Positions 416 through 9,917 of a DNA stretch of 35,194 nucleotides are shown here, piece after piece. The translations under genes were made by a program, and so were the position numbers. Source of the stretch: Flavobacteriaceae bacterium (GTDB lineage: Bacteria; Bacteroidota; Bacteroidia; Flavobacteriales; Flavobacteriaceae); the NCBI GenBank assembly GCA_028280265.1, contig JANQMD010000014.1:1-35194 (forward strand). Direction: 5' to 3'. A model generated the notes under the pieces. It saw nothing but the letters and a program-made list of their open reading frames with translations. It did no database searches and had not been told where the DNA came from. Each line of letters opens with the position of its first letter. The stretch's first letter is position 1.

Positions 416-1510
416 ATGAAGCAAAATAGAGTCCTCCTTTTTCTGTCAGTTTGTTTGTGTTGTATATGTAGTCTAGCTTTTGCTCAGAATGCTAAATATG
501 AGGTTGTTGTGAGTGATCTTGATATTCCTTGGGGTTTTACTTTTTTGCAAGATAACTCGATGTTAATTACAGAAAAAAGTGGTAAAATGATCCACTTTAA
601 AAAGGGACAAAAAATAACCGTTTCTGGTTTGCCTAAAATGAACTCTTACGGACAAGGAGGATTGATGGATGTGGAGTTACATCCAGATTTTAAAAATAAT
701 AACTATATCTACTTTACCTATGCGGCAACCCACGGAAGAGGAAGAGGCGCCAATACGGCTTTGGTGAGGGCTCAATTTAAAAACTCGAAGTTGAGTGATG
801 TAAAAATCTTATACAAAGCCACGCCTAACTCGACAAGAGGTCAACATTTTGGTTCTAGAATTGCTTTCGACAGAGAAGGATATCTATATTTTAGTGTAGG
901 TGATAGAGGAAATAGAGATTTGAATCCACAAGATATTACCAGAGATGGAGGAAAAATTTACCGTTTGCATGATGATGGTAAAATTCCTGAGGACAATCCT
1001 TTTTTTAATAGATCCAATGCTAAGAAAGCGATTTATAGTTATGGTCATCGTAATCCGCAAGGAATGGAATTGAATCCGTTTACAGGTGATATTTGGACGC
1101 ATGAACATGGTCCTAGAGGCGGAGATGAGATCAATATCATTCGAAAAGGAAAAAATTATGGATGGCCCAAGACAAGTTTTGGAATCAACTACAGCGGATC
1201 AAAATTTACGAATAAAACCTCTATCAAAGGAATGGAAGATCCTTTACATCATTGGACACCTTCGATTGCACCGAGTGGAATGGCATTTATTTCTAGCAAC
1301 CGTTATGGTGATTACAAAGGAAGTTTATTAGTAGGGTCTTTAAAATTTCAGTATGTTTCTATTTGTACCTTAGACAATGGAAAGGTGATCAAAGAAGAAA
1401 AAATACTTGAAGATTTGGGAAGGGTTCGATCTATAGAACAAGGTCCAGATGGATTTATCTACGTTGGAATCGAGAATTTGGGTATTGTAAGACTAAAAAG
1501 TATCCGTTGA
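416..1510 (+). CDS. PQQ-dependent sugar dehydrogenase (YliI/Asd-like)
   Basis: This 364-residue exported protein of the soluble glucose/sorbosone dehydrogenase family is expected to be a six-bladed propeller that oxidises aldoses with pyrroloquinoline quinone in the periplasm. A signal peptide covers about residues 1-24 (LLFLSVCLCCICSLAFAQ). Family landmarks are the early HPDF at 89-92, HFGSRIAF with the likely catalytic His144, FSVGDRG at 159-165, YGHRNPQGM with Arg212 in the PQQ-binding position, and HGPRGGDEIN at 231-240 followed by NYGWP. The length fits the family. No PQQ-synthesis gene is in the window, so cofactor supply is unknown. The gene stands alone, and the next gene has its own promoter motif. 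The substrate cannot be read from the sequence. Confidence 0.9.
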   Translation: MKQNRVLLFLSVCLCCICSLAFAQNAKYEVVVSDLDIPWGFTFLQDNSMLITEKSGKMIHFKKGQKITVSGLPKMNSYGQGGLMDVELHPDFKNNNYIYFTYAATHGRGRGANTALVRAQFKNSKLSDVKILYKATPNSTRGQHFGSRIAFDREGYLYFSVGDRGNRDLNPQDITRDGGKIYRLHDDGKIPEDNPFFNRSNAKKAIYSYGHRNPQGMELNPFTGDIWTHEHGPRGGDEINIIRKGKNYGWPKTSFGINYSGSKFTNKTSIKGMEDPLHHWTPSIAPSGMAFISSNRYGDYKGSLLVGSLKFQYVSICTLDNGKVIKEEKILEDLGRVRSIEQGPDGFIYVGIENLGIVRLKSIR

Positions 1511-1533
1511 TATTTTCATTTCAAATCCAAAAG

Positions 1534-1559
1534 TTGTAACGTTTTAAAAAAATGACTGT
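1534..1559 (+). promoter_or_regulatory. Candidate ECF-sigma promoter, copy 1
   Basis: TTGTAAC, 15 nt, then CTGT. The same two blocks with the same 15-nt spacing recur at 3021-3046 before the ECF sigma gene. An AAC-containing -35 is typical of ECF promoters. The motif lies 26 bp before the hydrolase start codon at 1586. Confidence 0.55.
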
Positions 1560-1585
1560 TTCTCTGTTTGTAAAACTTATGAACA

Positions 1586-3019
1586 ATGAAACAACTATCT
1601 ACATTATTAAGCTTTCTTTTTTTATTTATAACACTTTCTGCTGCAAGTCAAATAGAGAATGAGGGTAGTATTGATAAGTATATAAAGCATTTACAAAAGA
1701 GACATGAAATTCCTGGAGTTTCTGTAGCGATCTTGAAAAAAGGTCAAGTTGTCTATAGAAAGAATTTTGGAAAGGCCAATATGGAGCATAGAAGTCCCAT
1801 TACTGATAAATCTATTTATCGTGTTTATTCTCTGACAAAACCCATTGTATCTGTTGCCGTTTTTCAACTTGTTGAAAGAGGTAAATTATCTCTAGGAGAT
1901 GTAGTTTCAAAGTATGTTGATGACCTTCCAGAATCGTGGAGGAATACAAAAGTCAAACATTTACTCACACATTCTTCGGGTTTTCCCGATATGGCACCCT
2001 ACAATAGAATGTCTAAATTGACTGAAGAGGAAGCAAAAAACCTTATTTTCAAGGAAAAAAAGACAGCAGGTTTGGGAGAAAAGTACGAGTACAATCAAAC
2101 TAATTTTTGGTTACTGCAATTAATTATTGAAAAAGCATCAGGAGAAAAGTTGGAAGACTTTATTTCAAAGAATCAGTTCAAAAACGAAAAAAAGAAGGTC
2201 TTCTTCTCATCAAACTCAAAAAGAATTATAGAACATAGAGTTTCTGCATATTTCCCTTTCGAAACGGGAACCATACAGATTAGTCATCCTACTTTAAAAG
2301 GAAGGTATATGTTTGCGGCAAATGGCTTAAATATTACACTCGAAGAGTTTATTAAATGGGATCAAAGATTTCGGAACAATGAATTGATTCGTGAAGAGAC
2401 AAAAGATAGGATGTGGAGTGTTTTTTCGTATACAAACTCTAACAAGCAATTTACGTATGGATGGAATAAAAGAGTGATCAATGATCACAATTCTTACGGA
2501 TTTTCGGGCTCTTTAATCACAGCTTATCGCATTTTTCCTGAAGATGATTTAAGCATTATCTTTCTTTCTAACGGATTAGGAAATTACTACAATATCGAGA
2601 ACATTATCAATCACATTGTGAGTTTGGTAGACAAAAATATTACCGATTATCAGAACAAGGCTTTCGAGCTATTTTCACAAGCCATAGTTGATGGTAATGT
2701 ATCCACACTTAACAAGCAGTTTTTGGAGCTAAAAAGGCAAGGTGAGTCTGCAAATATGAATCTAGAGGCAGCGATTAATGATGTGGGTTATCAATTGGTC
2801 AATCAGAAAAGGATGCAAAAAGCAGTTGAGGTCTTTCGATTTAACACAGAGAAATATCCAAAATCAGCCAACGCATTTGATAGTCTGGGAGAAGTTTACT
2901 TAATGCTAAATGATATGGATATGGCAGAGAAACATTACAAGAGAGCAGTAGCTTTAGGAGGAACTAATGGCAACGCAAAAAATATGCTAGAACAAATAAA
3001 ACAAACAAAAAAGAATTAA
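1586..3019 (+). CDS. Exported serine hydrolase, beta-lactamase/PBP4 fold, with C-terminal TPR
   Basis: This 477-residue protein belongs to the class C beta-lactamase-like superfamily, which includes D-aminopeptidases, esterases and PBP-like enzymes. A signal peptide spans about residues 1-21. The nucleophile motif S-L-T-K is at 82-85, followed by the family HLLTHSSG at 125-132. A Y-N-Q variant of the YxN motif is at about 169-171, and a G-F-S-G loop at about 310 takes the place of KTG. Residues from about 370 to the end form a helical region with one clear TPR unit (FDSLGEVYLMLNDMDMAEKH), a tail common in flavobacterial members. It is probably periplasmic; the substrate is unknown. An ECF-type promoter motif shared with the downstream sigma gene suggests that it belongs to that sigma factor's regulon. 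Confidence 0.88.
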   Translation: MKQLSTLLSFLFLFITLSAASQIENEGSIDKYIKHLQKRHEIPGVSVAILKKGQVVYRKNFGKANMEHRSPITDKSIYRVYSLTKPIVSVAVFQLVERGKLSLGDVVSKYVDDLPESWRNTKVKHLLTHSSGFPDMAPYNRMSKLTEEEAKNLIFKEKKTAGLGEKYEYNQTNFWLLQLIIEKASGEKLEDFISKNQFKNEKKKVFFSSNSKRIIEHRVSAYFPFETGTIQISHPTLKGRYMFAANGLNITLEEFIKWDQRFRNNELIREETKDRMWSVFSYTNSNKQFTYGWNKRVINDHNSYGFSGSLITAYRIFPEDDLSIIFLSNGLGNYYNIENIINHIVSLVDKNITDYQNKAFELFSQAIVDGNVSTLNKQFLELKRQGESANMNLEAAINDVGYQLVNQKRMQKAVEVFRFNTEKYPKSANAFDSLGEVYLMLNDMDMAEKHYKRAVALGGTNGNAKNMLEQIKQTKKN

Positions 3020-3020
3020 T

Positions 3021-3046
3021 TTGTAACGTTTTTAGAAAAAGGCTGT
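3021..3046 (+). promoter_or_regulatory. Candidate ECF-sigma promoter, copy 2 (autoregulatory)
   Basis: TTGTAAC-N15-CTGT, matching the copy at 1534-1559 in both blocks and spacing, with an A/T-rich spacer that begins GTTTT in both. It starts one base after the hydrolase stop codon and lies 37 bp before the sigma start. Autoregulation of the sigma operon is the simplest reading. Confidence 0.6.
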
Positions 3047-3082
3047 ATATCAGTTCAAAGCTAACCAACATAGATTGTAAAA

Positions 3083-3637
3083 TTGAATACATTATCAGAC
3101 AATTCATTAATGTTAAGAGTAAAAGCAGGCGAGACACAAAAGCTTGGACTGCTTTACGAAAGATATAAGAAAAGACTCTTTGGTTTCTTCTATCAGATGA
3201 ATAAGGATGCTGCTTTAAGTGAAGATCTCGTGCAGAATGTTTTTGTAAAGATTTTAAAGTACAAGCATACGTATACAGAAGAGAGTAAGTTTGTGGTTTG
3301 GTTATTTCAAATTGCCAGAAACACAAGCTACGACAGTTTTAAAAAAGTAAAAAAGAACATGCATAAAGATATTGATGAAGTTGGATATTCAATTGATTCA
3401 AATGAAGATAATATGCAGGCGGTAATGGTAAAAAAGGAGAATGTAAGAACCCTAACGAGAGCCATGGAGATGTTAAATCCTGAGAAAAAAGAACTATTAG
3501 TTTTAAGTAAGTTCAAAGGGTTGAAGTACAGAGAGATTGGAGAGATTGTAGGTTGTTCTGAAGGCAATGCCAGAATTAAAGTACACAGAGCATTGAATGA
3601 ATTAAAAGGAATTTTTCTAACGTTAGAAAACAGATAG
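3083..3637 (+). CDS. ECF-type RNA polymerase sigma-70 factor (TTG start)
   Basis: This 184-residue sigma factor contains only regions 2 and 4. Region 2 spans about residues 22-90 (LLYERYKKRLFGFFY, then DLVQNVFVKILKY and FVVWLFQIARN). Region 4 spans about 120-178, with helix-turn-helix residues YREIGEIVGCSEGNARIKVHR. I prefer the TTG start because the residues before the first internal ATG (LSDNSLML) match the usual N-terminus of this flavobacterial group; the alternative is the ATG at 3110. It sits two bases before the putative anti-sigma gene, so the pair is probably translationally coupled. A promoter motif directly upstream suggests autoregulation. The inducing signal is unknown; the neighbours point to envelope stress. 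Confidence 0.93.
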   Translation: MNTLSDNSLMLRVKAGETQKLGLLYERYKKRLFGFFYQMNKDAALSEDLVQNVFVKILKYKHTYTEESKFVVWLFQIARNTSYDSFKKVKKNMHKDIDEVGYSIDSNEDNMQAVMVKKENVRTLTRAMEMLNPEKKELLVLSKFKGLKYREIGEIVGCSEGNARIKVHRALNELKGIFLTLENR

Positions 3638-3639
3638 AA

Positions 3640-4431
3640 ATGGATTACAAAGAATTTAAAGAGTTAATGATTGATTATCTGTCAGATAATTTATCGGAGG
3701 AAAAAGTAGCAGAATTTGAAGCATTTTTAGCAGCAAACTCAGAGTATAAGGAAGAGTTTGAAGCTACTCAACTTTTTTGGAATGCTGAAGAAGAAATTCC
3801 AGAGCCCTCCGCTGCTATGGATGTAAAGTTTTATACCATGCTTAATGAGGAAGAGCAAAAGAGCACAAAAATTTCTATTTTCCGCAAAATAGAGCAGCTA
3901 TTGTTAGGAAGTTTCCCCAAACAGTTGGCGTACACACTAGCAGTGTTATTGGTAGGTTTTTTCTTTGGAAATCGTCTTTTTACTGAGAAACCTGTTGTTA
4001 ATCAAGACGTATTGCAAGCAGCAAAACAAGAAACAGCAGATGTTCGATCTCAATTGGTTTTAACTTTATTAGATCAGCCATTAGCGAGTAAGCGATTACA
4101 AGCGGTAAGTGAAGTAACCAAGTTAGATACAGTGGCAGAAACGATTATTAAAGCATTGTTTTCAACACTAAACAACGATGCGAACGTGAATGTACGTTTG
4201 TCAGCAATTGAAGCATTGAAAAATTATACGCATATTCCTCTGGTAAGAGAAGGTTTGGTCTCCTCAATCATTCATCAAAAATCACCTTTGGTACAAGTAG
4301 AACTAGCCGATTTGATGGTGTTGTTGCAAGAGAAAAAGGCAGTAAAGTCTTTTGAAAAATTAATCAAAGAAGAAGATGTAAATATAAGTGCAAAACAAAA
4401 AATGGAGCAAAGTATTCAGAGTATTTACTAA
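3640..4431 (+). CDS. Putative membrane anti-sigma factor with HEAT repeats
   Basis: This 263-residue protein is encoded two bases after the ECF gene. Residues 1-75 form an acidic helical cytosolic domain (DYLSDNLSEEKVAEFEAFLAAN) like the N-terminal part of anti-sigma factors, but without the zinc-binding H-x3-C-x2-C. One membrane segment lies at about 97-110 (LAYTLAVLLVGFFFG). Residues from about 130 to 250 look like two or three HEAT-type helical repeats, for example NVNVRLSAIEALKNY, and would be periplasmic. The anti-sigma role is inferred from gene order, topology and the helical N-terminus. The HEAT part could be the sensor or could bind the DUF4097 proteins encoded next. No signal peptide is seen. 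Confidence 0.75.
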   Translation: MDYKEFKELMIDYLSDNLSEEKVAEFEAFLAANSEYKEEFEATQLFWNAEEEIPEPSAAMDVKFYTMLNEEEQKSTKISIFRKIEQLLLGSFPKQLAYTLAVLLVGFFFGNRLFTEKPVVNQDVLQAAKQETADVRSQLVLTLLDQPLASKRLQAVSEVTKLDTVAETIIKALFSTLNNDANVNVRLSAIEALKNYTHIPLVREGLVSSIIHQKSPLVQVELADLMVLLQEKKAVKSFEKLIKEEDVNISAKQKMEQSIQSIY

Positions 4432-4441
4432 GTATTAACAT

Positions 4442-4463
4442 TGTTGATATGACGATATCAACA
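4442..4463 (+). promoter_or_regulatory. Perfect 9-bp inverted repeat between anti-sigma and DUF4097 genes
   Basis: TGTTGATAT-GACG-ATATCAACA lies 10 bp after the anti-sigma stop. There is no T tract, so it is unlikely to be a classical terminator. It could be an operator, an mRNA processing hairpin or an attenuating structure inside the operon. I know of no matching family. Confidence 0.4.
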
Positions 4464-4478
4464 TGAGAATAAATGGTC

Positions 4479-4579
4479 ATTCCCTAATGATGGGAATCTA
4501 AAATAGAAGTTTGATGTAAATGGCAAGTCCTAGGTCGCTTTTTACAAAAAGAAACAACAGTCATTCCTACTTCGGTAGG
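4479..4579 (+). repeat. Two further small hairpins in the 170-bp gap, repeat-like
   Basis: ATTCCC/GGGAAT (4479-4484 with 4492-4497) sits in a sequence (GTCATTCCC...GGGAATCT) like the 'TCATTCCT...AGGAAT' short repeats of Flavobacteriaceae. A second hairpin, CCTAC-TTCG-GTAGG (4566-4579), follows TCATT in the same way. These look like two relics of one repeat family in the 5' region of the first DUF4097 gene. Confidence 0.4.
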
Positions 4580-4601
4580 GCAAACATCAAAACAAAATAG
4601 T

Positions 4602-5516
4602 ATGAAACATTTAAAATTATGTAGTATCCTTTTCGTCTTAGGTTGTGTGATATCACTTTCAGCACAACGCTACGAAAAAGAGAAAAGGTATAACGAGACA
4701 GAAACGATTAAAAAAGAATTGAGTTTTCTAACATCATCACCAGACAATATTGTGGTTATAGACAATGTATATGGGTCCATCGATGTAGAGGGATATAATG
4801 GAAGTACCATTCAAGTAGAAGTTGTAAAAACGGTAGCAGCAGACACAAAAGAAGATTTGCAACAAGGGATGAGAGAAATAGGAGTAAAGTCAGCCAAAAA
4901 AGAAGATGCCGTTTATGTGTATATGGATTCTCCTTATTCTAAATTCGATTTGGAAACTGGAGGCTTTGAACATCATGAGTTTCATTTTGGATCTAGACGA
5001 AGTTATAAGCACAGAAAAAGAAGAATGTATAGATACCGATTGGACTTTAAAGTAAAGGTTCCCAAAAATGCAAGCATCGATGTTAAAGCAGTGAACAGAG
5101 GAAACATTACGGTAAAAGATGTGCAAGGGAAGTTGTTGATTGTTCATAACATTAATGGGGCAATTACCATGACCAATGTGGCTGGACAGACAGATGTGAA
5201 TGCTTTGAATAAAGATATCAATATCACCTATGCAAAGAACCCTACAAAAGAGAGTTGGTACAAATCATTGAATGGAGACATTAATGTTAAATTCAAAAAG
5301 GATTTAGATGCTTCTATTAGTTACAAGACGATGAATGGAGGTTTTTACACCAACTTCGATGTAGAGAGAACGGTGCCTAAAATTAACAAGGTAAAAGAAT
5401 CTAGAAGAAACAAAACGAAATATAAAATAAACTCAAACAGGCATTTTAAAATCGGTAATGGAGATGTACACTTACATTTCGATCAGTTGAATGGAGATGC
5501 TTTTGTAAAAAAATAA
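4602..5516 (+). CDS. DUF4097 family beta-helix surface protein, first of tandem pair
   Basis: This 304-residue exported protein has a signal peptide over about residues 1-21 (ending LSAQ). The mature part opens with the family strand pattern IVVIDNVYGSIDVEGY, has an insert rich in His, Arg and Tyr at about 125-145, then beta-repeat strands such as VNRGNITVKDVQG, INGAITMTNVAG, LNKDINITY and LNGDINVKF. Such right-handed beta-helix proteins (DUF4097, related to head-GIN 'adhesin' domains) lie beside envelope-stress regulators in several phyla, but no biochemical activity is established. It is closely related to the next gene, sharing VNRG, NGxI, ALNKDI and SLNGDI in the same order, so the pair arose by duplication. 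It is probably co-expressed with the sigma/anti-sigma pair. Confidence 0.82.
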   Translation: MKHLKLCSILFVLGCVISLSAQRYEKEKRYNETETIKKELSFLTSSPDNIVVIDNVYGSIDVEGYNGSTIQVEVVKTVAADTKEDLQQGMREIGVKSAKKEDAVYVYMDSPYSKFDLETGGFEHHEFHFGSRRSYKHRKRRMYRYRLDFKVKVPKNASIDVKAVNRGNITVKDVQGKLLIVHNINGAITMTNVAGQTDVNALNKDINITYAKNPTKESWYKSLNGDINVKFKKDLDASISYKTMNGGFYTNFDVERTVPKINKVKESRRNKTKYKINSNRHFKIGNGDVHLHFDQLNGDAFVKK

Positions 5517-5528
5517 GAACCTAAGAAC

Positions 5529-6338
5529 ATGAAAAATTTAAAACTCATTATAGCAAGTGCTTTACTATTGATATCAGTTCAATTAACAGCGCAAGAAACA
5601 GTAACAGTACCACTTTCAAATCCTGGAAAAGAAGGATTGTTAAAACTGGGAATCATCAGCGGATCCATTACTGTAAAAGGTTATTCTGGAAAGGAAGTCA
5701 TTGTAAAAGCAACCAGAAGAGAAGGAAGAAAAAGCAGAAGAAAAAGCAATACAACGAAGAATGGCTTGAAAAGAATTTCTGTAAATTCTCTAGAGTTTAG
5801 CGCAGAAGAGTACGACAATACTGTAAGAGTGAGAAACTCTGTACACGGAACCACAGATTTTGATATTCAAGTGCCTAAAAACTTCTCATTAAAAATTTCT
5901 ACCGTAAACAGAGGAGAAATCTATGTGGAAAATGTGAATGGGACCATGGATATTAGTAATACAAATGGTAAAATAACCTTGAAAGACATTAGTGGTTCGG
6001 TGAGCGCAGATGCACTAAACAAAGATATCAAAGTAACATTTGTAAAAGTAACTCCTGATGTTCCAATGGCTTTTAGTAGTTTGAATGGAGACATTGATAT
6101 AACTTTTCCAAAAGATATTAAAGCTGATATTAAGGTAAAATCAGACCGAGGAGAAATTTTTACAGATTTCGATTTAAAAACCAAACCTTCAAAAGCGAAG
6201 ATTACCAAAGGTGAGTCTAGCAACGGAAATACCTATAAAGTGAAAGTAGAAAAATGGATTACTGGTTCTATCAATGGAGGAGGAGCAGAAATCTTATTCA
6301 AAAACTTTAATGGAGATGTGATCATTAGGTCAAAATAA
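5529..6338 (+). CDS. DUF4097 family beta-helix surface protein, second of tandem pair
   Basis: This 269-residue exported protein starts 12 bp after its paralogue. A signal peptide covers about residues 1-21 (LLLISVQLTAQ). A basic stretch with repeated R and K at about 60-80 replaces the longer insert of the first copy. The repeat strands match the first copy position by position: VNRGEIYVENVNG, TNGKITLKDISG, ALNKDIKVTF, SLNGDIDITF and a final FNGDVIIR. Location is periplasmic or on the outer membrane. An intrinsic terminator follows 20 bp after the stop, so it ends the operon. The function is unknown; a structural or damage-sensing role in the envelope is a guess from context. Confidence 0.82.
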   Translation: MKNLKLIIASALLLISVQLTAQETVTVPLSNPGKEGLLKLGIISGSITVKGYSGKEVIVKATRREGRKSRRKSNTTKNGLKRISVNSLEFSAEEYDNTVRVRNSVHGTTDFDIQVPKNFSLKISTVNRGEIYVENVNGTMDISNTNGKITLKDISGSVSADALNKDIKVTFVKVTPDVPMAFSSLNGDIDITFPKDIKADIKVKSDRGEIFTDFDLKTKPSKAKITKGESSNGNTYKVKVEKWITGSINGGGAEILFKNFNGDVIIRSK

Positions 6339-6357
6339 CAACAAGAAAATAGCAAGT

Positions 6358-6385
6358 AAAGGCTCCCAGTTGGGAGCCTTTTTTT
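6358..6385 (+). terminator. Intrinsic terminator of the sigma/DUF4097 operon
   Basis: GGCTCCC-AGTT-GGGAGCC followed by seven T, 20 bp after the second DUF4097 gene. Confidence 0.93.
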
Positions 6386-7700: not shown

Positions 7701-9917
7701 CTAGAATTGCTTGAGAAACGTTATTTTACTGATCAATTGTCTGTCCACTTGTACTGGATTAAAAACATCCGTTTGAACATCGTTAAAGACCAAGTAAATG
7801 AAAGATAAAGGAGTATACTCCCAACTTAAGCGAGTATTCCATCTTCCTTGTTTGTTAAAGCTGTTGTATTGATAAAATGCATTGAATTGTACTCTAGGAT
7901 TCAATGCTAGCCTCAAATTTCCACTGTATAAGTTTGTTGTTAAATTTTCATTGGCCGCTCCAATGTTTACGAGTTGATTGTTTTCGTAATTGGCAGATAA
8001 TGAGATATGAGGTAATGGAGAATACCTTGTAGAAGCCACTAGAGTTCTTCTTTTACCATTGTAAAAGTCACCAAAATCGTATCGTATACTACCAGAAAAT
8101 TTTCTCGATTGATCTGATCTGTAGCTGAATGCGTGACGTGTGTAATAATATCTATCCTGAGTAATTTGAAGACCTAAAGGAGCAAAATTAAAATTGATAT
8201 TCTGCCAGGTAGGAGTGAACGAAAACTCCAAAAAGCTATTGTCTTTGAACCATACCCAAACAGGAAAAATCCATAAACTAGCTTGTTGAAATTCTGAAGG
8301 ATTATTTGCATTGTGATTGTAATTAACAAATACCCCAGGATCCCATCGTCTAATCCAACTAAGTTTTTCATTTTTTGGCCTCCAAATATAGTATCCTCCA
8401 GGATTGTGTCTTATTACATTGTTTTGTCTTACAAATCCCATTTTAGGATTGTACTTTTCATCGGTATATTCTGTCACCCAACCATAATAGTAATCGTTAG
8501 AGTCGTTTCCAATGAATACTCTTCCTGCAAATCCAGTCTCTCCTGTAAACTCATCAATAGAACTCGTAAGAATATACTGTATATCCCACTGACTAGAAGG
8601 GCGAATTTGTCCATCTAAAGTGATGGTCGTATTGTTGTTACTTTCTAAATTTTGAGAATTAAATCTTTCATCAAAGCGATGAGTGATCATAACTCCAATA
8701 TTATTCTCTCTACCATAATTTTGCAAGTATCTAAACACGCCAAAATTTGATGCAGGAGAATTGTCTGTTTCACGTTGTCTTACATACAATCCTGCGATGG
8801 CATTTTTTTGAGTTCTTCTCGTAAAGCGTGTCCCAATATCTATAGGTGCAGCCGTGGCATTAAACTCGCCTTGTAAACCAATTCTTCTACTAAAAAAAGG
8901 TCGTATAGAAGTTTGGAGTCCACCAGCCCATATTCCTGAATTCTCTAGAAAAAATTGTCTTCTTTCAGGAAAAAAGATATTAAAACGTTCTAAGTTATTT
9001 ACTGCTCTGTCAATATCAGCTTGAGCAAAATCGGTATTGATGGTAAGATCCATCACTGTTTTTGGATCTACTGCCCATTTTACATCAACTCCTACTTTAC
9101 CATCACGATCTATATTTTGAACAGAATTTCCTGCTTTGCTTTCATTGAATTGATATAAAGAATAAGGTTCAATTCGAATGTTTGAGGAGGATGGGGGAGC
9201 TTGAATTCCTACCAGCTTTGCAGCATAAGTCATTCTATACGGTGTAAATGATTGCGGAATGGGAGGAAAACTAGAAATCTCTACTTCTCTTCTTGCATAA
9301 CGGACCAAGGTGATTCCTAGCTCAATGATATTGTCATCTTTAGGTAAATTATATCTTAATGATTTGAAAGGGATTTCAAATTCAGCATAATAACCTTTTT
9401 CAGTTCTTTTTGTGCGTACCTTCCAGAGCGTATTCCATCCGTTGTCAAATGAATTTCCATTAAAGTTTTGAAAATCTCGTTGATTTCCATAAGGAGTGGT
9501 TTGAAACCCTTGTGCATACTGCTTCAAATTTTGAGGATCTAAAGCAATTCCAAAAATATCATTAGGTCCCCATGAAAAATCTCTACGTAAATCTTGTACT
9601 CTAATTCCTTTTTGCCCAAGAGAATCCGCACAGAAAGCCCCTACGTATAAATTCTTATTATCATATAAGAAACGTACTTCTGTTTTAAATTTTACAGGAC
9701 CGCCTTGTCTGGGTTCTCTACGAAAAAAGTTACTAATAGTGACTGCGTTTTGCCAATCTGATTCAGATAAATCGCCATCTACTTTAACTTTAGAGTTTAC
9801 TTTTGTAACTCTTATTTTTTGTATTTCCTCTGGTGGTGGAAAATTTCCTTGTGTATTATCTTGTGCAATTGCTTTACTAACAAATAGTAGTGCAATCATA
9901 AAAATGATATATCTCAT
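7701..9917 (-). CDS. DUF5916 outer-membrane protein with CBM9-like N-terminal domain
   Basis: This 738-residue exported protein has a signal peptide over residues 1-18 (ALLFVSKAIAQ). The N-terminal domain, about residues 35-230, is of the carbohydrate-binding family 9 type: VDGDLSESDWQNA, the strand VRFLYDNKNLYVGAF, then GYYAEFEIPFKSLRY. The rest, about 240-738, is the DUF5916 beta-barrel, recognised by NNLERFNIFFPERRQFFLEN followed by PFFSRRIGL and many Tyr/Trp/Phe-rich strands ending in a terminal Phe (FLKQF), as expected for an outer-membrane barrel. Proteins of this architecture are very common in Bacteroidota and are suspected to be outer-membrane pores or binding proteins linked to peptidases or glycans. 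No substrate is proven. It is transcribed alone. Confidence 0.87.
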   Translation of the reverse strand: MRYIIFMIALLFVSKAIAQDNTQGNFPPPEEIQKIRVTKVNSKVKVDGDLSESDWQNAVTISNFFRREPRQGGPVKFKTEVRFLYDNKNLYVGAFCADSLGQKGIRVQDLRRDFSWGPNDIFGIALDPQNLKQYAQGFQTTPYGNQRDFQNFNGNSFDNGWNTLWKVRTKRTEKGYYAEFEIPFKSLRYNLPKDDNIIELGITLVRYARREVEISSFPPIPQSFTPYRMTYAAKLVGIQAPPSSSNIRIEPYSLYQFNESKAGNSVQNIDRDGKVGVDVKWAVDPKTVMDLTINTDFAQADIDRAVNNLERFNIFFPERRQFFLENSGIWAGGLQTSIRPFFSRRIGLQGEFNATAAPIDIGTRFTRRTQKNAIAGLYVRQRETDNSPASNFGVFRYLQNYGRENNIGVMITHRFDERFNSQNLESNNNTTITLDGQIRPSSQWDIQYILTSSIDEFTGETGFAGRVFIGNDSNDYYYGWVTEYTDEKYNPKMGFVRQNNVIRHNPGGYYIWRPKNEKLSWIRRWDPGVFVNYNHNANNPSEFQQASLWIFPVWVWFKDNSFLEFSFTPTWQNINFNFAPLGLQITQDRYYYTRHAFSYRSDQSRKFSGSIRYDFGDFYNGKRRTLVASTRYSPLPHISLSANYENNQLVNIGAANENLTTNLYSGNLRLALNPRVQFNAFYQYNSFNKQGRWNTRLSWEYTPLSFIYLVFNDVQTDVFNPVQVDRQLISKITFLKQF

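Follow-up and report, generated by a model that had tools for sequence, protein, structure and literature searches.

A candidate autoregulated ECF sigma factor operon with HEAT-repeat and DUF4097 proteins and a replaceable upstream gene in Flavobacteriaceae

Gene content of the locus

The window analyzed here is a stretch of 35,194 nucleotides from a Flavobacteriaceae bacterium (assembly GCA_028280265.1, contig JANQMD010000014.1). Its region 416-6385 contains a gene for a serine hydrolase, a gene for an extracytoplasmic function (ECF) sigma factor, a gene for a 263-residue protein with predicted HEAT repeats, two genes for DUF4097 proteins (D1 and D2) and a terminator-like hairpin of 10 base pairs (6358-6381); a glucose/sorbosone dehydrogenase-like gene in the same region lies outside the set. 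Gene order and a promoter-like sequence before the sigma gene recur across the phylum, and the gene in front of the sigma gene is exchanged between lineages. As a whole, we consider it reasonably probable that the locus represents an autoregulated operon of a sigma factor, a HEAT-repeat anti-sigma factor and DUF4097 sensors, to which one gene in an upstream slot is added. An initial annotation of the DNA had proposed such a combination and knew of no described counterpart, and literature searches likewise returned no description. The features are listed in Table 1.

Table 1. Features of the sigma factor locus and their positions in the window.
Feature	Position	Strand	Remark
Predicted promoter of the slot hydrolase, TTGTAACGTTTTAAAAAAATGACTGTTTCTC	1534..1564	+	Rank 2 of all window positions, 28.4 bits
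Slot gene: predicted exported PF00144 serine hydrolase with C-terminal TPR-like region	1586..3019	+
Predicted autoregulated promoter of the sigma operon, TTGTAACGTTTTTAGAAAAAGGCTGTATATC	3021..3051	+	Rank 1 of window positions, 33.5 bits; motif also before orthologues
ECF-type sigma factor, regions 2 and 4, TTG start	3083..3637	+
Predicted class I-like membrane anti-sigma factor with HEAT repeats, 263 residues	3640..4431	+
Conserved leader preceding the first DUF4097 gene; core 4521-4545, flanking arms TTTGATG / CATCAAA	4510..4592	+
D1, DUF4097 (Toastrack) protein, predicted signal peptide	4602..5516	+
D2, DUF4097 (Toastrack) protein, predicted signal peptide, beta-helix model	5529..6338	+
Intrinsic-terminator-like hairpin and T run, end of operon	6358..6385	+

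The 184-residue sigma protein matched Sigma70_r2 with 50.1 bits and r4_2 with 48.1 bits, both above the Pfam cut-off, and gave no Pfam match for region 3; with regions 2 and 4 and no region 3 it is a sigma factor of the ECF type. TTG is the apparent start codon in the window, in L052-L055 and in several further orthologues, and may keep translation of the sigma factor low. The 2 bp between the sigma gene and the candidate anti-sigma gene, as well as the two DUF4097 genes followed by a terminator, were found as the initial annotation had described them.

The HEAT repeats postulated for the 263-residue protein were supported by an AlphaFold2 model and by matches to alphaRep proteins and the PP2A scaffold in a PDB profile search, but not by the HEAT_2 profile, which reached 22.0 bits and stayed below the Pfam cut-off of 27.7. 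PF13646 is annotated for most of the 120 homologues listed, and a Foldseek search with the model matched helical-repeat proteins, none of them at E 0.001 or better. The model (mean predicted local distance difference test score, pLDDT, 81.3; predicted template modeling score 0.42) is of good confidence at residues 1-50, exceeds a pLDDT of 90 from residue 171 and is weaker in between. It contains helices at 3-14, 20-32, 35-48 and 58-76, a hydrophobic helix at 93-112 and helical repeats up to residue 262, with the HEAT repeats at about 149-262. The net charge beside helix 93-112 is +2 on the N-terminal and 0 on the C-terminal side, and therefore an orientation with the N-terminus inside and the HEAT repeats outside is suggested. 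Helices 3-76 are thus predicted to be cytoplasmic and the HEAT repeats to lie outside the cytoplasm.

DUF4097 was detected in both D1 (24.8 bits) and D2 (36.0 bits) above the Pfam cut-off of 22.9, and both proteins have apparent signal peptides as judged by eye. The D2 model is all-beta and beta-helix-like (mean pLDDT 83.8), in keeping with the single-stranded beta-helix of Toastrack proteins; its best PDB match was 4qrk with an E value of 4.5e-10 and a TM-score of only 0.41-0.50. In NCBIfam D1 resembled LiaX, and D2 resembled LiaG, LiaX and, with E 0.0083 and 16.2 bits (cut-off 57), the C-terminus of LiaF; all these matches were below the cut-offs. A scan limited to seven window proteins, with the rest of the genome left unsearched, revealed no domain of the PspA, PspC or LiaF type above cut-off.

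Conservation of the gene set and its promoter

In the first 39 genomes searched, the own genome included here as in the family and genus samples below, homologues of the 263-residue protein were present in 13. Eighteen places were mapped, and seven kinds of genomic neighborhood could be reduced to three: type A, the window's kind, with four relatives among the mapped places; type B, about 30% identical and with the same gene order; and type C, in which the match is limited to the HEAT part and a single DUF4097-like gene is present. In the family sample a homologue was found in 47 of 397 genomes. All 29 family loci fetched, one of which (L099) is closer to type B, had the sigma gene directly before the HEAT gene and a D2-like gene, and at 25 of them a D1-like gene lay within the stretch covered. 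The genus sample contained type A (identity of at least 57%) in 14 of 97 genomes, and the phylum sample gave a match in 49 of 395. At the 28 best-scoring phylum loci newly fetched, sigma, HEAT and DUF4097 genes followed each other in this order without exception. The search for the same gene set in related genomes, recommended in the initial annotation, was thereby carried out with a uniform result: the sigma gene precedes the HEAT gene at every fetched locus of both samples. Among the named carriers are Tenacibaculum aiptasiae, Polaribacter aquimarinus, P. porphyrae, Pontimicrobium aquaticum and one metagenome-assembled genome of the Cyclobacteriaceae. The locus (L) and genome (G) sets overlap, the following pairs being the same genomes: L116 and G237, L118 and G015, L119 and G498, L120 and G012, L121 and G005, L122 and G494, L123 and G357, L125 and G499, L126 and G440, L127 and G442, L128 and G121; counts are kept per set and never summed.

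The sequence TTGTAAC-N15-CTGT, which had initially been noticed before the hydrolase and the sigma gene, was found at 1534-1559 and 3021-3046. These are the two exact matches in the window, against 0.01 expected, and none of 100 shuffles reached two. With two mismatches allowed, the window contained 11 matches against 12.0 expected, a chance number, and therefore it is the exact form that carries the signal. The extended form TTGTAACGTTTT-N10-CTGT occurs exactly at the two window sites only in the whole genome of 3.3 Mb, followed by six sites with two mismatches; with up to three mismatches 73 sites were counted genome-wide, below the reversed control (110). Relaxed forms with two or three mismatches were rejected as evidence, as they showed no excess over chance or over the reversed control.

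Comparison of orthologous upstream regions from the family set enabled a more precise definition of the motif. TGTAAC was present within 130 nucleotides upstream of the sigma gene in 40 of 43 distinct regions (49 before removal of duplicates; chance about 3.8% each). The exceptions are L116, which has a 30-bit site further upstream, L128/L203, where the site lies before the upstream gene of an M61 peptidase, and one variant reading TGTCAC. In the phylum sample TGTAAC was found within 200 nucleotides of the sigma gene at 28 of 28 fetched loci, so that the proposed check for the motif before orthologues had a positive outcome. All 40 TGTAAC regions carry GT at a fixed -10 distance, and 31 of them read GTWTA at this place. 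CTGT as a conserved -10 element was therefore rejected: the two bases preceding the fixed GT vary, and their agreement in the window is a coincidence. The conserved -10 element is xxGTWTA, and the full promoter-like sequence reads TTGTAAC-N15-xxGTWTA.

For scoring, a matrix was built from the 40 sites that lie upstream of the sigma gene in other genomes and had been selected for their TGTAAC; the sites of the window and of slot genes were left out. Sigma sites score high by construction with this matrix, and one of its training sites, L099, is the locus closer to type B. In the window the two sites were followed by a third-best position of 8.5 bits, and in base-shuffled versions of the window (703,280 positions) maxima of 21.2 and 13.2 bits were reached. 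A matrix from the 26 non-genus sites only gave 28.9 bits at 3021, 24.6 bits at 1534 and then 12.7 bits, so that both ranks were unchanged.

Strong sites seem largely restricted to this locus. The strict pattern TGTAACGTTTT-N12-GTWTA matched 11 times in the 97 genus genomes, ten times before this sigma gene and once with no relative of the gene set nearby; the reversed control likewise gave one match. In 11 module-bearing genomes all 13 sites with at most one mismatch were located at the module locus. Among 402 regions upstream of open reading frames (ORFs) at 34 loci, 30 exceeded 12 bits, all of them before a type A or type B sigma gene or its slot gene. Over the full 413,627 bases of these loci 36 positions did so, two of them elsewhere, and 20 further family loci (213,008 bases) added a single site elsewhere with 13.0 bits. 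By this comparison, the predicted autoregulation of the sigma operon is well supported; the originally proposed arrangement of ECF sigma factor, putative HEAT anti-sigma factor and DUF4097 genes as one operon is supported as well, and the sigma factor likely recognizes its own promoter.

Three sites share the TTGTAACGTTTT -35 but have CGTCTW at -10 (G456 C1:1227622, G005 C18:517411, G003 C5:352888); these are possibly promoters of another ECF sigma factor. Among the sites with two or three mismatches elsewhere in the 11 genomes, a few resemble other promoters, with a CGTCTW -10 or the sigma-54-like pattern TTGGCACG; a weak-site regulon beyond the locus may exist.

The window's genome harbors one set each of types A, B and C, the further HEAT/sigma sets being located at C60:158989-159732 (type B, L056) and C51:75667-75999 (type C, L067). 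The third gene of the type C set scored 21.4 bits with DUF4097, just under the cut-off. All 20 type B loci fetched kept the gene order and a TGTAAC-type -35 (CGTAAC in one) at the same distance. Their -10 element is CTATATA in 16 of 20 loci, a sequence absent from all 16 type A promoters compared from the same genomes. A point against a strict separation comes from the window's genome itself, where the type B promoter scored 31.2 bits with the type A matrix; types A and B are less distinct there, and cross-recognition between them may occur. The type C loci L066, L067 and L069 show, by eye, a different upstream pattern, roughly TTGNGACAC...CTTACGT. In a distant relative (G683 C5, L270) two divergent sigma/HEAT sets lie side by side.

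The ECF reading of the motif draws on sequence comparison, and the motif might instead be bound as an operator by a different regulatory protein or serve as a promoter of the primary sigma factor. We regard this as highly improbable: two short blocks at fixed spacing are tied to this sigma gene phylum-wide, the type B sigma gene keeps the TGTAAC-like -35 with CTATATA at the -10 place in 16 of 20 loci, and the primary motif reported for F. psychrophilum, TAnnTTTG, differs (PMC9723704, available part).

Upstream slot and leader

The position directly upstream of the sigma gene, here called the slot, is occupied in the window by a hydrolase that matched PF00144 with 160.7 bits against a cut-off of 27 and contains SLTK at residues 82-85, Tyr169 and FSG at 306; in five hydrolase homologues compared, the SxxK motif reads SLTK or SLSK. 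A hydrolase gene is found at the same place in P. porphyrae L118 (59% identity), L119 (51%), L124 (52%) and T. aiptasiae L114 (41%), so that it holds the slot at 4 of the 16 named loci. All five genomes, the window's included, have a separate site before the hydrolase with a common -35 (TGTGAC in one) and common spacing, scoring 33.0, 18.1, 16.0 and 15.8 bits in the four genomes other than the window's.

Unrelated families occupy the slot elsewhere. Two genomes encode a 497-residue M61 peptidase there, behind sites of 28.1 and 33.8 bits. The sigma gene of one of the two has no site of its own, and therefore the peptidase gene appears to be the first of the operon. In two more genomes the slot product is an IHGV-repeat protein predicted to be exported, with sites of 22.4 and 34.1 bits. 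Taken together, these slot genes with sites account for 4 of the 20 family loci examined. The IHGV-repeat proteins (L218 5306-6367 and L220 4455-5618) are characterized by repeats of about 29 residues with IHGV/HSV and gave no Pfam match above cut-off. A second M61 protein of about 622 residues is encoded upstream of the sigma gene in 8 of the 20 family loci. M61 peptidases are common neighbors of the module and bear the promoter only sometimes.

The initial claim that the module also controls the hydrolase thus gains support from the same -35 and spacing in five genomes and from the promoter shared by unrelated slot families, and the predicted control of the slot gene by the sigma factor is well supported by the sequence comparison. 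The hydrolase as a fixed output was not borne out, as the slot is otherwise held by an M61 or IHGV-repeat gene or is empty. In our view the slot is an output position whose gene can be exchanged, the hydrolase being one of several occupants.

Several observations weigh against this assignment. The window's hydrolase site reads GTTTC instead of GTWTA at -10, and three of the four hydrolase sites in other genomes are weak (15.8-18.1 bits). The hydrolase adjoins the module in 3 of the 14 genus genomes having it, and the 13 hydrolase homologues besides the window's own are module-adjacent in G015 and G498 only. The module-bearing genome G456 encodes a 52% identical homologue elsewhere, with a TTGCAAC site of 4.6 bits, and the other ten homologues (about 36-43% identity, none module-adjacent) have at most 10.6 bits. 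The 622-residue M61 genes lack a site (at most 2.4 bits). In the phylum sample a slot gene with a site was found at one of 20 fetched loci, 19 of them usable; L270 was left out of the count, its two divergent sets being viewed from the second one. With a separate matrix, the site of the PF00144 slot gene of L289 reached 17.7 bits, a score similar to those of eight D1-internal sites and by itself weak evidence. The D1-internal sites (16.9-20.2 bits, at eight phylum loci and about 2.0-2.25 kb downstream of the sigma start) were rejected as promoters and read as coding conservation. At L285 a PF00144 gene is present in the slot without a site.

Two successive predicted promoters, 67-116 nucleotides apart and with no gene between them, precede the sigma gene in L126 (918/985), L127 (5318/5386) and L123 (5270/5386). 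A slot gene may once have lain between them and been lost. Such pairs without room for a gene, the near identity of the two window sites at a distance of 1.5 kb and the imperfect -10 of the hydrolase would also fit a fossil or chance by-product of a local duplication, with the hydrolase outside the regulon. This explanation seems rather improbable to us, as the hydrolase sites of other genomes differ in sequence and keep the -35 and the spacing, and as unrelated slot genes bear good sites.

The leader before D1 has a 25-nucleotide core that occurred 13 times in 12 of the 97 genus genomes, with none in the reversed control; no further copy was detected in the window's genome. Every core lies just before D1 or, in G442 and G499, at the start of the longest D1 reading frame and in frame with it. 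In G003 and G494, the other two genomes with type A, the core is a variant with one extra base. A conserved small protein was rejected for the set as a whole, the extra base in G003, L114, L122 and G494 breaking the shared frame. The leader gave no Rfam match up to E 1. Folding yielded seven predicted pairs, none of them compensatory; covariation cannot decide here because the paired bases hardly vary. An RNA hairpin and a DNA dyad are both conceivable.

Downstream of the set, the window contains a gene for a DUF5916/CBM9 protein on the reverse strand (7704-9917), relatives of which lie downstream of 3 of the 20 type B operons (L250, L261, L269).

Proposed regulation and related systems

In the reading preferred here, the sigma factor would recognize its own TTGTAAC-N15-xxGTWTA promoter, and a closely similar sequence would bring the hydrolase gene into its regulon. 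At rest, the N-terminal helices of the anti-sigma factor would keep the sigma factor bound at the inner membrane, and the HEAT domain of the same protein would lie on the periplasmic side. RseB is a periplasmic partner on the anti-sigma factor RseA. By analogy with it, the exported DUF4097 beta-helix proteins might, speculatively, dock on the HEAT domain and signal the condition of the envelope. Damage that draws these proteins away or alters them would free the sigma factor, with cell-envelope stress as the presumed signal. The freed sigma factor would transcribe its own operon, restoring sensor and inhibitor and damping the response, and would also transcribe the upstream-slot gene. The slot product would be a serine hydrolase acting on the envelope here and a different predicted exported protein in other lineages.

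The 263-residue protein is, judging by its model, likely a class I-like membrane anti-sigma factor. For class I factors a three-helix bundle plus a fourth helix is described (PMC7406223, in the part available). Like the class I pairs RseA-RpoE, RsiW-SigW and RskA-SigK, the module consists of adjacent genes in a predicted autoregulated operon, and its candidate anti-sigma factor is modeled with three helices plus a fourth (same part of PMC7406223); unlike them, it has a predicted HEAT domain beyond the membrane helix and two DUF4097 partner genes. Two points speak against the proposed scheme. No anti-sigma family matched the 263-residue protein above cut-off in Pfam and NCBIfam. Furthermore, the accessible text of PMC11237479 unites DUF4097-type families as Toastrack and predicts them to be intracellular, which conflicts with the apparent signal peptides of D1 and D2. 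In the same text an operon-linked sigma factor is mentioned in a different context; HEAT occurs once in the main text (as heat shock) and ECF is absent there.

Alternatively, the operon may be autoregulated with the DUF4097 proteins as outputs that coat or brace the envelope, the HEAT domain sensing something else directly. D1 and D2 are predicted to be exported and lie downstream of the promoter, the accessible text of PMC11237479 describes Toastrack proteins elsewhere as parts of envelope-protection operons, and the contact between HEAT and DUF4097 proteins is drawn from analogy. We nevertheless consider this alternative less likely than the sensor scheme. Three kinds of sigma gene exist in the genus, each beside a HEAT-domain gene and DUF4097-like genes, and the pairing is kept at 28 of 28 phylum and 20 of 20 type B loci; this constancy suggests a direct functional link.

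The sensor scheme resembles RpoE-RseA-RseB in the proposed logic of a periplasmic partner on an anti-sigma domain, with HEAT and DUF4097 domains in place of those of RseA and RseB. It shares with the Lia and phage shock protein Toastrack systems (LiaF, LiaG, LiaX) DUF4097 proteins tied to envelope-stress regulation, and differs from them by an ECF sigma factor instead of two-component control and by the apparent signal peptides of its DUF4097 proteins. The SM6 promoters of F. psychrophilum, attributed to an alternative sigma factor, are likewise of ECF type and come from the same bacterial family; they have a CGT -10 and targets of the type IX secretion system (PMC9723704, available part), in contrast to the GTWTA -10 of the module and its strong sites, which are seemingly confined to one locus.

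Tentatively, and with less confidence than for the locus itself, the findings may be extended to a phylum-wide module in which a periplasmic HEAT anti-sigma domain and exported Toastrack proteins would form a sensor of envelope damage, with a one-gene output slot evolutionarily refilled behind the same promoter and parallel paralogous copies with their own -10 elements. Little work has been devoted to the control of envelope stress in Bacteroidota. With a promoter readable from sequence alone, a constant core operon and an exchangeable output gene, the regulon could be predicted in genomes not yet studied. Should the docking hold true, Toastrack proteins would gain a defined partner outside the cytoplasm, and the -10 difference between many co-resident copies would provide a natural set for the study of sigma factor specificity.

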